NCBI RefSeq assembly: GCF_018283675.1
Contig: NZ_JAGVRK010000001.1
Location: forward strand, 1,054,001 to 1,118,000
DNA: 64,000 nt
Origin: Metabacillus flavus
Lineage (GTDB): Bacteria; Bacillota; Bacilli; Bacillales; Bacillaceae
Reading direction: 5' to 3'
Positions 7,386 through 63,483 of this stretch are shown in pieces. A program made the translations under genes and the position numbers. The number at the start of each line of letters is the position of its first letter. The stretch's first letter is position 1. The notes beneath the pieces are model-generated. The model did not search any database. It had not been told where the DNA came from and worked only from the letters and a program-made list of their open reading frames with translations.

Positions 7386-8648
7386 ATGAAAAGAAAATTG
7401 AGCATGTTACTGTGCCTCGTTTTAGGAATCGGACTGCTGGGAGGATGTTCAGGTAAGGCTGATAATCCAAATAAATTAACAGCCTGGGTCTGGAATGTTA
7501 ACGTCCCGGTATTGGAGGCTGCTGAAAAGCGATATCAGGAAGATCATCCTGAATTTGATCTTGAGATTGTTGAAATGGGTACAAGCGATGTTTATCAGAA
7601 ACTGACCACGGGCCTGCTTGCAGGCGGACAGGGCCTTCCGGATATTGTTCTTGTGGAGGATGACCGTATACAAGGCTACATCGATTCCTTTCCGGATGCA
7701 TTCCTGAACTTATCAAAACACGGATTTGATGAAAAGAAAGAATCCATGTTTCCCGAGTTTAAAAGAGATTTAGTTTCAAAGGACGGAGATATGTATGCGT
7801 TTCCTTTTGATGCGGGTCCTACCGGGGTCTTTTATCGAAAAGATATATTCGATAAAGCCGGCGTAAACGCAGAAGATATGAAAACATGGGCTGATTTTAT
7901 TGAAGCTGGAAAAACAATTAAAGAGAAGACAGGCAAGGATATGATCGGACTCGATTTAAACGGGGATGACGGTCTCTACCGTATGATGCTGAATCAGCAA
8001 GGAACCTTTTATTTTGATGAAAATGAAAAGCCGAATCTGACTTCACCAGAGTCAGTTAAAGCCATGAAGGTTCATAAGCAGCTGAAGGAAGCGGATCTTG
8101 TGAAAAATACGGTTGGCTGGGACGCTTGGATCAGCTCCATGGTTCAGGGGGACGTAGCGACAGCTCCTTCGGGTGCGTGGCTTGCAGGCTCGATTACCCA
8201 GCAGGGGAAAGATTCGGCTGGCAAATGGGGAGTCATTCCTTTACCGGCATTTGAGGAGGGCGCAAACCGTGCCTCAAACCTTGGCGGGAGCAACTATACG
8301 ATCATGAAATCATCTGAAAATGCGGAAATGGCGTATGACTTCCTGGAGTACTTTTCAACAGATGAACAAACACAGATTGAAGCAATGAACGGAGGGCTCT
8401 TTCCTTCACTGACCACCATTTATGATGAAGATGTGTTCACTAATGGAGTAGATTTCTTTGGCGGACAGGCTGTATGGAAAACGCTTGCCGATCAGATGAC
8501 AGACATTCCTTCGGTTAACTATACCGGCGATTTTCCGTATGCCAAGGACGAAGCGGTGAAAGCGCAATCCCAGGCAATGGGAGGAAAGCTTACGATCGAA
8601 GAAGCATTTAAAGCAGCTCAAAAGCGTTTGAAGAATAGAATGCTTTAG
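7386..8648 (+). CDS. Sugar ABC transporter substrate-binding lipoprotein (module 2)
   Basis: Family 1 solute-binding lipoprotein of 420 aa. The signal peptide ends in LGGC with the lipidated Cys at residue 21. The mature protein has the same landmarks as the module 1 copy (LTAWVWNV, GLPDIVLVEDDRI, DAGPTGVFYRKDIFDKAG) but is well diverged, so ligand preference may differ. The RBS is AAGGAGGG. It supplies the permeases at 8712 and 9563. Confidence 0.92.
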   Translation: MKRKLSMLLCLVLGIGLLGGCSGKADNPNKLTAWVWNVNVPVLEAAEKRYQEDHPEFDLEIVEMGTSDVYQKLTTGLLAGGQGLPDIVLVEDDRIQGYIDSFPDAFLNLSKHGFDEKKESMFPEFKRDLVSKDGDMYAFPFDAGPTGVFYRKDIFDKAGVNAEDMKTWADFIEAGKTIKEKTGKDMIGLDLNGDDGLYRMMLNQQGTFYFDENEKPNLTSPESVKAMKVHKQLKEADLVKNTVGWDAWISSMVQGDVATAPSGAWLAGSITQQGKDSAGKWGVIPLPAFEEGANRASNLGGSNYTIMKSSENAEMAYDFLEYFSTDEQTQIEAMNGGLFPSLTTIYDEDVFTNGVDFFGGQAVWKTLADQMTDIPSVNYTGDFPYAKDEAVKAQSQAMGGKLTIEEAFKAAQKRLKNRML

Positions 8649-17909: not shown

Positions 17910-17980
17910 GCCCTTATTGTGTTCGCATCCCCCATCATGTACACTAAGGACAGTTTTTAAATTTTTCCTAAAAGGTGATT

Positions 17981-19489
17981 ATGTTGCGTATATATATAAA
18001 AGGAAATCAGGATGAACGGTTTCATCGGCCGCTTAGACTGATTTCCAATTTGTTTTTTGAAGAGACAGAACTTTTGTTTGAAGAAGGTGAAGCAGATTTA
18101 ACCGCGTCTATTGTGATTGAAGACCGCGGACAATCAGTTCTCGTTTCCGGAATCGCGGAAGCAGGCTGCCGCACCTATACGGCAAGCCACGAAAAGGATC
18201 TGACTGCTTTCTCTATAGAAAAGGAACGGTTTAAACAGATTAAAAACACATTGGCCCGCGTATACCTCATGCTGCTTCAAGAGCATACCGGCATTATTCA
18301 GCAGTGGGGCATCCTGACAGGAATGCGCCCGGTCAAACTGCTTCACAAAATGCTGCAGGACGGCATGACGAAAGAAGCAGCCCACCATAAGCTGCGGGAA
18401 GAATATTTAATTACCGAACAAAAAATACAGCTCATGCAAAGCATTGTGGACCGTCAATTAAAGGTGATTCCCGATCTCTATGACCTCGGCAGGGAAATCA
18501 GCATTTACATCGGAATTCCATTTTGCCCGACTAAATGCGCTTACTGCACATTCCCTGCGTTCGCTATGAATGGAAAACAAGGCAGAGTCGATTCGTTCCT
18601 TGGAGGTCTCCACTACGAAATGGAAGAGATCGGAAAGTACCTGAAGGAAAGCGGCATCAAAATTACGACTGTCTATTACGGCGGAGGAACGCCAACAAGT
18701 ATTTCTGCAGAGGAAATGGACATGCTGTACGAACGCATGATGGAAGTCTTCCCCGATGTGAAGAACATCCGGGAAGTGACCGTTGAAGCAGGACGCCCTG
18801 ATACGATCACACCTGAAAAGCTGGATGTCCTGAAGAAATACAGCATTGACCGCATCAGCATCAATCCGCAGTCCTATACACAGGAAACACTAAAGGCAAT
18901 CGGACGCCACCATACTGTGGAAGAAACGATTGAAAAGTTCCATCTTGCCCGCAAACACGGCATGAACAATATCAACATGGACCTGATCATTGGACTGCCA
19001 AATGAAGGGGTGGAGGAAATGGCGCACTCTCTTGCTGAAACGGAAAAGCTTATGCCTGAATCGCTCACCGTTCATACGCTCTCATTCAAACGCGCATCCG
19101 AAATGACCCAGAACAAAAAGCGCTATAAGGTGGCGAGCCGAGAAGAGACAAGCGACATGATGGGACTGGCTGTTGACTGGACTGCGAAAAACGGATATGA
19201 GCCGTATTACCTTTACCGTCAAAAGAATATCCTCGGGAATCTGGAGAACGTAGGATATGCGCTTGAAGGACAGGACTCCCTTTACAACATCATGATTATG
19301 GAAGAACAGCAGACCATACTCGGACTTGGCTGCGGAGCCGCCAGTAAATTCCGCGATCCTGAAACGGGAAAGATCTCACACTTCAACAACCCGAAGGATC
19401 CAAAATCGTATAATGATGGGTATAAGCATTATACAGAAGAGAAAATTCGGATTATGAGGGAACTGTTTGGTGTTAAGGAAGAGGTATAA
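17981..19489 (+). CDS. hemZ: HemZ, oxygen-independent coproporphyrinogen III oxidase-like radical SAM protein
   Basis: Radical SAM protein of 502 aa. The 4Fe-4S motif CPTKCAYC lies near residues 181-188, followed by the SAM-binding YYGGGTPTS and VTVEAGRPDT. It belongs to the HemN/HemZ/HemW group; B. subtilis HemZ is associated with coproporphyrinogen oxidation under low oxygen, although many HemN-like proteins have other roles. I chose the ATG at 17981 rather than the GTG at 17975, because AAAGGTG overlaps the GTG. It is followed by a strong terminator. Confidence 0.9.
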   Translation: MLRIYIKGNQDERFHRPLRLISNLFFEETELLFEEGEADLTASIVIEDRGQSVLVSGIAEAGCRTYTASHEKDLTAFSIEKERFKQIKNTLARVYLMLLQEHTGIIQQWGILTGMRPVKLLHKMLQDGMTKEAAHHKLREEYLITEQKIQLMQSIVDRQLKVIPDLYDLGREISIYIGIPFCPTKCAYCTFPAFAMNGKQGRVDSFLGGLHYEMEEIGKYLKESGIKITTVYYGGGTPTSISAEEMDMLYERMMEVFPDVKNIREVTVEAGRPDTITPEKLDVLKKYSIDRISINPQSYTQETLKAIGRHHTVEETIEKFHLARKHGMNNINMDLIIGLPNEGVEEMAHSLAETEKLMPESLTVHTLSFKRASEMTQNKKRYKVASREETSDMMGLAVDWTAKNGYEPYYLYRQKNILGNLENVGYALEGQDSLYNIMIMEEQQTILGLGCGAASKFRDPETGKISHFNNPKDPKSYNDGYKHYTEEKIRIMRELFGVKEEV

Positions 19490-19498
19490 GGTTTTTGG

Positions 19499-19527
19499 AA
19501 AGCCCGGCCGGAGAGCCGGGCTTTTTT
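19499..19527 (+). terminator. Terminator after hemZ
   Basis: AAGCCCGGC and GCCGGGCTT form a perfect stem with a CGGAGA loop and a run of T. Confidence 0.92.
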
Positions 19528-20118
19528 CAGTTGTGCAGGATTGATGGTAGCGGGGGAGATATGTTTGGGGAGGTGAAAAAAGGATGAGGCTTTGAAAAGA
19601 TAATAGTGAATCAGATTGGGTAAGCGGGCGTTATAATGATGGTCGGCGGGGCAAAAACCTGTGTGGAGTGCGGCTGTATAGTTTAAGTTTGCTACTGGAT
19701 CGGAATCCGGCAGGTCGAAACGTCCCGAATCGAAAATATATTGAAGTTTTCGATCATAAAGGACGCGATGCCAGGCAATGCGGACCGGACCCAGGTACTG
19801 ATTTGGTTTATGATGAAAAATTTTCGGTTTATGATGAATTTTTTTGGTTTATGATGAAATTCCTCCGGGTTATGATGAATTTTTCCAGATTATGATGAAA
19901 TTCTGAAATATATGATGAAATTGCAAATTATATGCTGAAAACGCATTACCCAGGCATCATGCAGTAAGTAGTCCAAATACTGCGAACCGCGTTCAGACCT
20001 GCTGAACTGCATCCAGCCAATCTCTTCATTTCTCACAATCTGTAACTTTACATCCCCCGATACGTCTTTTAAAATAGAATTTCCTATAGGTTTTGCTTTA
20101 GGACAGGAGGATCTTATT
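19528..20118. other. Gene-free spacer of about 590 bases
   Basis: I find no credible gene here. The longest open frame (19668-19895) has no good RBS and is largely made of the repeat described separately. The left part has a GC-rich stretch, the centre holds the phased TATGATGAA array, and the right part (19940-20100) leads to the RBS of the acetyltransferase. In B. subtilis, as I recall, the khtSTU genes lie between hemZ and yhaR, so this is a rearranged junction. Confidence 0.7.
19809..19939 (+). repeat. Seven-copy degenerate repeat phased at two DNA turns
   Basis: The core TATGATGAA occurs exactly at 19809, 19830, 19850, 19871, 19891 and 19911, with TATGCTGAA at 19931. Spacings are 21, 20, 21, 20, 20 and 20 bases, close to two helical turns. 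Flanks are AT-rich and variable, often TT before and ATT after the core. Even phasing on one face of the helix resembles iterons or multi-site operators. No function is known to me. Confidence 0.85.
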
Positions 20119-20556
20119 ATGTTTGAGATAAAACCAATTCAATCAATGGAAGCGATTCCGCTTCGCCAGATGGTGATTTCACCGGACTCGCCATTGGAAG
20201 AGAGCAAGTATACCGGAGATGAAAACGAAGATACCATACATATTGGAGCGTTTGCGAAGGATCAGCTTGTCGGGGCAGCCTCTTTTTATAAGGAGCAGCA
20301 TGCTAAATTAAGCGGTAAAAGCATGTACCGCCTTAGAGGGCTTGCAATTGATCCCGGTCACCGCAATGAGTTAAGAGGGCAGACACTTATTCTGTTCGGT
20401 GAGAACCTTTTAGCACAAAATGGAATTGATGTGCTTTGGTGCACGACAAAGCTGTCAAATCTGCCATACTATCAGCATCTTGGATTCCAGGAGACAGAGC
20501 ATACCTTCAATGAAGGAGAAAAAGGTCTTCAGGTTTTGATGGTTAAGCATATATGA
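20119..20556 (+). CDS. GNAT-family N-acetyltransferase
   Basis: Small acetyltransferase-like protein of 145 aa with the GNAT pattern RLRGLAIDPGHRNELRGQTL and the late FQETEHTF strand; LPYYQHLGF matches the usual YxxxGF. The pyrophosphate loop (normally RxxGxG/A) reads HRNELRGQ, a little unusual. The RBS is ACAGGAGG. Stand-alone gene with its own terminator; substrate unknown. Confidence 0.8.
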   Translation: MFEIKPIQSMEAIPLRQMVISPDSPLEESKYTGDENEDTIHIGAFAKDQLVGAASFYKEQHAKLSGKSMYRLRGLAIDPGHRNELRGQTLILFGENLLAQNGIDVLWCTTKLSNLPYYQHLGFQETEHTFNEGEKGLQVLMVKHI

Positions 20557-63220: not shown

Positions 63221-63483
63221 GGTGGTGCCTGACCCGCGATTCTTCACCGCAATGGGGGACAGAGACAGAGGCTATTGAACCCTTGTGTATCAACAGATTG
63301 AAGAGAGCGGTGCCAGAGCTTTAGTACGGTGAAATTTTTGGGGACTGACACGGTGCCAGTCCCGTTCTTCTTCACCGCAGCGGGGGACAGAGACGCAGGC
63401 CGCTGAATCCTTACGTATCAACAGTTTGAAGTGGGTGGTGCCAGAGCTTTAGTACGGTAAAATATTTGGGGACTGGCACCACC
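63221..63483. repeat. Two-unit 128-bp tandem repeat with inverted termini
   Basis: TTCTTCACCGC starts at 63240 and again at 63368; the intervening 128 bases are repeated with about one difference in six. Shared blocks include GGGGGACAGAGAC, TATCAACAG and GGTGCCAGAGCTTTAGTACG. The outer ends are related inversely: GGTGGTGCC at 63221 and GGCACCACC ending at 63483. No open frame of note. It has the look of a small non-coding repetitive element (MITE-like or structured RNA), family unknown. Confidence 0.8.

Follow-up and report, generated by a model that had tools for sequence, protein, structure and literature searches.

The window, by which we mean the whole stretch of 64,000 nucleotides analysed here (G000:C1:1054001-1118000, part of the 4.03-Mb genome G000), carries a radical-SAM gene at 17975..19489 on the plus strand (Pfam PF04055; the label hemZ stems from a sequence-only reading of this DNA, and the domain alone was checked) and a GNAT acetyltransferase gene further downstream on the same strand (20119..20556, Pfam PF00583). 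A terminator-like hairpin with a T-run, recognized by eye, lies 3′ of the radical-SAM gene at 19500..19527 (+); a consensus terminator scan gave no hit there, perhaps because the stem extends into the T-run. The gap between the two genes contains an array of seven 9-bp cores at 19809..19939, all on the plus strand, which consists of six exact copies of TATGATGAA (19809..19817, 19830..19838, 19850..19858, 19871..19879, 19891..19899 and 19911..19919) and a terminal variant with a single mismatch, TATGCTGAA (19931..19939). The steps between cores are 21, 20, 21, 20, 20 and 20 bp, and positions and steps agree throughout with those given in the sequence-only reading. In the related genomes G075 and G076 a 13-bp alignment gap removes half of the terminal core. 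Promoter-like hexamers (TTTACA-17-TAAAAT) occupy 20047..20075 (+), starting 108 bp past the array, and both are identical in G075 and G076; promoter-like sites around the array numbered two, compared with 1.8 expected in shuffles.

One further exact copy of TATGATGAA was found in the window on either strand, at 8421. When the window was matched against itself at lags of 12-39 in 60-bp stretches, at least 40 of the 60 positions agreed only at lags 20 and 21, both of which peaked at the array. The spacer looks gene-free, as had been claimed: two ORFs of at least 40 aa overlap the array, both mechanical, namely a plus-strand ORF of 75 aa that ends within it and a minus-strand ORF of 48 aa that overlaps its end, and the mixture of 20- and 21-bp steps means that a reading frame cannot be maintained across the array. 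The proposed synteny break did not hold up, since the order hemZ, gap, acetyltransferase gene is uninterrupted in G075/L047, G076 and G077. We rejected a plasmid or phage origin of the array, since the 519-bp window gap had no match in plasmids or phages and triples of ATTGCTGAC, a second core described below, occurred in no stretch of the viral contigs.

Further repeated words were noticed in and around this gap. Another phased word is present in two degenerate forms, TCGAAAATA and TCGATCATA, 20 bp apart at 19730..19758 (+), the spacing being judged by eye, and the orthologous gap of G077 holds a longer series of TCGATAATA-like words with steps of ~20-22 bp, also by eye. Just upstream of the window array we observed GATGCCAGGCAATGC, which resembles the GATGCCGGACAAGAATGCCGGACATGG-like units that recur in G077 with a period of ~41 bp, corresponding to four helical turns (L317:7093-7346 and L328:5132-5967). 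A 128-bp tandem repeat of 1.9 copies with GGGGACTGACACGGTGCCAG-like words at 63240-63479 of the window showed no sign of kinship with the array.

Two families of phased arrays

Searching G000 for pairs of TATGATGAA yielded 48 occurrences at 12 places and none for the reversed-read control. The window array is hence not the one special site that it had been taken for; it is one of 12 arrays of this core in G000, which we refer to as B arrays. Placed in register, the 12 arrays have cores and phase in common, and their spacers and flanks mostly look unrelated, with a few spacers recurring between arrays, for example at 434 and 440 kb. For the B core in general, the conserved stretch is ~14 bp, T-TATGATGAA-WTTT. 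Counting in-phase cores with at most one mismatch each, eight of the G000 arrays have six cores, three have five and one has seven. All nine B arrays at the G077 loci L191-L205, a set that does not include the array in its window gap, have five or six cores, those of G076 have three, six and six, and the eight arrays of G074 have four to nine. The arrays also have a polar end: the last core is TATGCTGAA in seven of 12 arrays in G000 and in six of nine in G077, and TATGCGGAA in one and two more, respectively, and TATGCTGAA was found at none of the internal positions in either genome (0 of 46 and 0 of 32). The single-mismatch seventh copy in the window corresponds to the word with which such arrays usually end and is not a case of random decay. 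In G074, TATGCTGAA makes up 18 of 28 internal B cores (the 18 from a tally of the six commonest words, the 28 derived from array sizes), and this core change is common to dispersed loci, which suggests a changed binding preference.

The second core, ATTGCTGAC, forms arrays with the same 20- and 21-bp steps (A arrays), again with a conserved stretch of ~14 bp, TA-ATTGCTGAC-TTT. Pairs of TTGCTGA numbered 23 in G000, 3 in G073, 137 in G074, 34 in G075, 44 in G076 and 36 in G077, with one pair each in the backward controls of G074 and G076 and none in those of the other four genomes; the three A-like pairs of G073, a member of the same genus in which no B pairs were found, look like chance. The size range of A arrays is wide, from 3 to 29 copies, and some are built of alternating, locally duplicated units. 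Where A and B modules share a gap they lie on the same strand, with A usually preceding B (e.g., L018, L190, L191, L195, L207, L209, L217, L218 and L222) and B preceding A in L194 and L205, and among clusters of at least three cores we found no gap with arrays on both strands. A third module of TGATTGAGG- or TGATGGAA-like words is located upstream of A on the same strand in L018, its ortholog L190 and L207. Another phased word, ATATCGACTATTTTT, with steps of ~20-21 bp, was seen at L227:13571-13639 and L228:4021-4089 (G076) and at G000:C1:471941-471972.

None of the 12 B arrays in G000 is more than ~1.2 Mb from the likely origin, which parS-like sites place near 0/4.03 Mb. An origin-proximal partition role was not relied on, given that G077 has one B array further out and that A arrays extend to 1.93 Mb. 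Between 1.93 and 3.29 Mb of G000:C1, a third of the chromosome, the pair searches found neither A nor B arrays.

Helical period and taxonomic spread

Steps were counted between consecutive cores 15-28 bp apart, the array in the window gap of G077 being outside these counts. The 103 B steps in G000, G076 and G077 comprise 52 of 21 bp and 51 of 20 bp and no others, and 215 of the 218 A steps in G000, G074, G076 and G077 are of 21 bp (179) or 20 bp (36), the remaining three being 19, 25 and 26 bp. In 855 kb of genus sequence, from stretches mostly chosen for their A or B arrays, chains of at least three identical 8-mers filled 79 bins at 20/21 bp and 61 at 41/42 bp; settings that share a step with these gave 20 (19/20), 47 (21/22), 29 (40/41) and 34 bins (42/43), and the remaining settings from 10 to 44 bp gave six bins at 39/40 and zero to two everywhere else. 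In 239 kb of G077 that had been chosen only for orthologous gaps, there was one bin at 20/21, six at 40/41, five at 41/42 and one at 42/43, and the other periods from 10 to 39 bp yielded two chains (14/15 and 17-19). Random stretches of G073 (60 kb) and G075 (20 kb) contained no phased chain. Outside the genus, a random 302 kb from other genera of the family contained one 20/21 array (L254, from G052, of TTTTGCAA) and three further chains with periods of 9-12 and 38-40 bp, the 8-mer scan of another 400 kb from the family detected two chains, at 14/15 and 41/42, and no 20/21 array, and a random 356 kb from other families of the order gave no chain at any period.

Similar phased arrays are present in relatives; their absence would have counted against the sequence-only reading by its own account. 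Pairs of TATGATGAA were detected in five of 80 family genomes, four of which are among the six genus members, and the fifth has a single pair with a 19-bp step. Pairs of ATTGCTGAC were detected in one of 397 order genomes, which is G000 itself, the other genus members lying outside that sample. A named relative with an array is Bacillus sp. SJS (L047), which has the same sequence as G075 at the window locus. Triples of TTTTGCAA at 20/21 steps occurred in three of 41 family genomes, and these three belong to a single genus. We also noticed TTTTTTGCAACTTT-like arrays with 20-21 bp steps in another genus of this family (L283 in G067, L282 in G052 and L284 in G069).

Triples of TATGATGAA in the species collection amounted to 17 stretches, of which L047 has mixed 20/21 steps and the other 16 have strict 21-bp steps; we took these 16 distant stretches, from the step alone, to be in-frame coding repeats and did not accept them as the same arrays. 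Pairs of TATGATGAA in viral contigs, at least 80 rows with nearly all steps of 21 bp, were likewise read as coding repeats. The strict 21-bp arrays of TATGATGAA in the species collection include those of a Bacteroidales MAG at L040, with 13 copies, and at L043. A triple of TTGCAACTTT occurred in one stretch of the viral contigs. A contig of the viral collection that is possibly host DNA ends near a TTGCAACTTT array (L306:8943-8990).

Core constraint and turnover of arrays among relatives

The sequence-only reading had proposed, from the window array alone, that the cores and their phase are kept and the spacers vary, and the comparison of relatives agrees with this. In 14 pairs of related arrays, cores had changed at 20 of 694 sites (2.9%), spacers at 246 of 834 (29.5%) and flanks at 814 of 3303, with the core conservation inflated, as the arrays were located via their cores; gap openings numbered two in cores, six in spacers and 65 in flanks, which corresponds to 8 for 1528 array sites vs 65 for 3303 flank sites. 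These 14 pairs are a selection from the related pairs (L180/L194, L182/L174 and L189/L178, among others, are outside the comparison) and they overlap, three G000 arrays being used twice; in the two 3725-kb pairs the "spacer" takes in the stretch that separates the A module from the B module, and one of the 14 is a copy at another locus with non-homologous flanks. Compared with its counterparts in G075 and G076, respectively, the window array is unchanged at all 54 core sites, differs at three and four of 57 spacer sites, and has flanks that differ at 18 of 280 and 16 of 267 sites.

Several gaps carry arrays in more than one species. The gap that separates a SpoIID-family gene from a PF00275 (murA-like) gene carries both A and B arrays in G000, G074, G076 and G077, as does, in G074, G076 and G077, a gap beside an InhA-type protease gene, where G000 has a single A pair. 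Gaps can also retain an array while the core word changes: beside a DUF520 gene, the gap of G000 has a TATGATGAA array, that of G076 a ATTGCTGAC array, and that of G077 three AATTGCAC words at 41-bp intervals. In G052, which belongs to another genus of the same family, a 21-bp array of a different word, around CGTC, occupies the gap that follows the murA-like gene (the spoIID side of this gap was recognized by eye only). Self-identity at lags 21 and 42 is 0.443 and 0.434 there, vs 0.293 (sd 0.043) at other lags, the highest of which reached 0.376. An exact pair of this word at the steps asked was found in none of 40 genomes, G052 included, and the murA-like gap in eight other genomes showed no array (seven genomes from outside the genus by the lag measure, G073 by reading).

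The window gap of G077 contains a reduced array of TATGATGAA, TATGGTGAA and TATGATGAA, followed 24 bp on by an out-of-phase TATGCTGAA; a gap at 325 kb has five cores in G000, one in G076 and none in G077, and at a gap at 440 kb the array is absent in both G076 and G077. As arrays are absent or reduced at orthologous gaps, none of these sites requires an array. A B array together with some upstream sequence was found at two unrelated loci, L195 of G077 on the one hand and L013 of G000 and L193 of G077 on the other, a recurrence that suggests either copying or recombination between arrays.

Genomic context and possible function

By type of gap, 20 of 55 arrays are located in convergent, 32 in codirectional and three in divergent gaps, and in the codirectional gaps the array strand runs with the genes in 15 cases and against them in 17. 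With other gaps of at least 200 bp from the same stretches as controls, genes called by a simple ORF caller and orthologous gaps counted separately, divergent gaps were depleted (3 of 46 array gaps vs 39 of 184 others, p=0.019, one of two tests made), and the enrichment of convergent gaps was non-significant (16 of 46 vs 46 of 184, p=0.20). A terminator-like hairpin comes before the array at 30 of the 59 gene ends that face one. Ten neighbouring proteins examined belong to unrelated families, so that the fixed neighbour looked for in the sequence-only reading was not found. Ten RNA folds compared with shuffles were inconsistent (z from +1.0 to -2.8): three were better than nearly all shuffles (z -2.1 to -2.8), and those of the window array did not stand out from shuffles (z +1.0 and 0.0). 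A search of Rfam over 2.1 kb returned 17 rows at E up to 10, none at gathering score; weak snoRNA-like rows, below gathering scores, were set aside, the core words TGATGA and CTGA being their probable cause. Such a context agrees better with an element that acts at the DNA level, outside promoters, than with an operator or a sense RNA.

A multi-site operator of the downstream gene, which in the window would be the acetyltransferase gene, was among the functions first suggested for the array. The promoter-like pair past the window array, unchanged in G075 and G076, is what such an operator would lead one to expect, but the idea is weakened by the scarcity of arrays in divergent promoter gaps, by the 20 arrays in convergent gaps, where no gene starts, and by neighbours that are functionally unrelated, and we regard it as decidedly improbable. 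An element that acts as RNA, in a 3′ UTR or as a small RNA, appears very improbable, since against the three better folds stand the unremarkable folding of the window array, the balance of array strands between codirectional neighbours, the hairpins ahead of arrays and the Rfam result. Centromere-like sites of a ParMRC type partition system would have a similar plan, parC consisting of serial direct repeats of 10 bp that are bound by ParR (PMC4911067), and chromosomal ParMs exist (PMC12270681). In the system described in PMC4911067, parC is located just upstream of parM and parR, whereas the arrays here are scattered over a dozen loci and the window array, between radical-SAM and GNAT genes, has no partition gene directly beside it; hence we give this idea hardly any credence.

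The arrays could also be neutral minisatellites that arise via slippage or unequal exchange on a mutational ruler of ~20.5 bp, without a selected function. The widely varying copy number of A arrays, some with locally duplicated units, the gap with five cores in G000 vs one in G076 and a period common to many unrelated words are all in keeping with this. Duplication would preserve spacers too, yet spacers differ ten times more often than cores in the (biased) pairs, B arrays are near-constant in size with a distinctive last core, and the same core recurs at dispersed sites among spacers that are mostly unrelated. A freely evolving minisatellite should show drifting spacing and cores that change like their spacers, and neither was observed, with the bias of the conservation data applying here as well. 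We therefore consider neutral minisatellites unlikely. Distinctly unlikely, too, is a selfish or mobile short repeat with cores that would serve as recombinase or transposase binding sites and be copied between gaps. The dispersal of the arrays and the block with the array of the 458-kb locus that reappears, with some upstream sequence, at a different locus of G077 (L195) speak in its favour, but this sole copying event can be recombination between arrays, many loci are common to two to four species, no transposase is among the 10 annotated neighbours, and visual inspection of the ortholog alignments revealed neither terminal inverted repeats nor target duplications.

Among known repeats, REPs are palindromic, and plasmid iterons are tandem direct repeats at helical spacing. 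The arrays described here have asymmetric direct-repeat cores without a palindrome or a consistent fold, in which they differ from REP/BIME repeats. They are dispersed and intergenic, as REP/BIME repeats are dispersed and extragenic (PMC3733652). Tandem direct repeats at helical spacing are a feature that they share with iterons and with parC as described in PMC4911067; they differ from both in their many chromosomal copies and, at the window array, in having neither a rep nor a par gene as a direct neighbour. The bcr1 element of the Bacillus cereus group, by its title description a dispersed DNA repeat with mobile element characteristics (PMC2267715), is likewise a dispersed repeat of the Bacillaceae, and the likeness refers to this description and not to sequence.

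The closest published geometry is that of LytTR-domain sites. Those of the AgrA/AlgR/HdrR type are described as 9-bp direct repeats 12 bp apart, in a minority 11 or 13 bp, with repeat sequences that are poorly conserved and a length and spacing that are kept, and the SilA site has an AT-rich spacer (PMC6193735, PMC2766830). The arrays, too, are 9-bp direct repeats with spacers of 11-12 bp, and their core sequence varies when length and spacing do not. The two differ in number and placement: LytTR sites, in these sources, are pairs just upstream of a promoter, whereas the arrays have 3-29 copies and lie mostly off divergent promoters, and in the window the nearest downstream promoter-like pair is found well beyond the array and not with its -35 adjoining it. 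We suggest that the array may work like a LytTR site and do not claim it as one. A LytTR-related fold is also present in RemA, which is proposed to form a ring that wraps DNA and protects its target DNA periodically, in six or more regions, and RemA and LrpC of Bacilli are both proposed to wrap DNA as oligomers (PMC8481266). RemA shows that Bacilli possess LytTR-related proteins for which DNA wrapping is proposed; its protected regions of 7 bp at 3-bp intervals, which are AT-rich, weakly conserved and located upstream of promoters (PMC8481266), differ from the strong 9-bp core at every 20-21 bp of the arrays.

We favour the explanation that an oligomeric, sequence-specific protein docks on the array at the level of the DNA, with a geometry like that of LytTR sites, and see about an even chance that this is correct. 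Asymmetric 9-bp words that stand head to tail two turns apart, with spacers that drift, point to each word being read from one face of the helix. The cores would be bound head to tail, one for every two turns, by a single sequence-specific DNA-binding protein or by members of a small protein family. Five or six molecules or dimers would thereby be aligned on one face of the DNA, probably wrapping or stiffening it. The docking site would be ~125 bp long, and the near-fixed size and polar end of the B arrays suggest a complex of defined length. The shift of the core in G074 would suggest a trans-acting reader with a changed preference. A role in architecture or topology would be more likely than the switching of one neighbouring gene. 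The shared cores and phase, the same-strand composites, the avoidance of divergent gaps, the inconsistent RNA folds and, with the bias noted, the core constraint among relatives are the observations with which docking agrees. It is opposed by several unrelated cores within one genus and genome, which one protein would not explain, by the coming and going of arrays, and by the window array of G077 with its changed core and last step of 24 bp.

A wider and more speculative view, which we put forward tentatively and think unlikely, is that these form a genome-wide class of intergenic "ruler arrays" in the Bacillaceae, in which the chromosomal position and the two-turn period of 20-21 bp would be long inherited and the 9-bp word would be replaced within and between genera. 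Word families that coexist on the same strand would then form a distributed scaffold that organizes the chromosome between transcription units and is read by a fast-evolving family of DNA-wrapping or LytTR-like proteins. Among the titles and abstract openings of the matches listed, a scope that leaves out most subscription papers, we found no description of such arrays. If they are docking sites, they would point to a sequence-specific protein system on the chromosomes of Bacilli that changes its target word and keeps its helical geometry, which would amount to a natural experiment in the co-evolution of proteins and DNA. The arrays could also provide a handle on how Gram-positive chromosomes are organized between transcription units.
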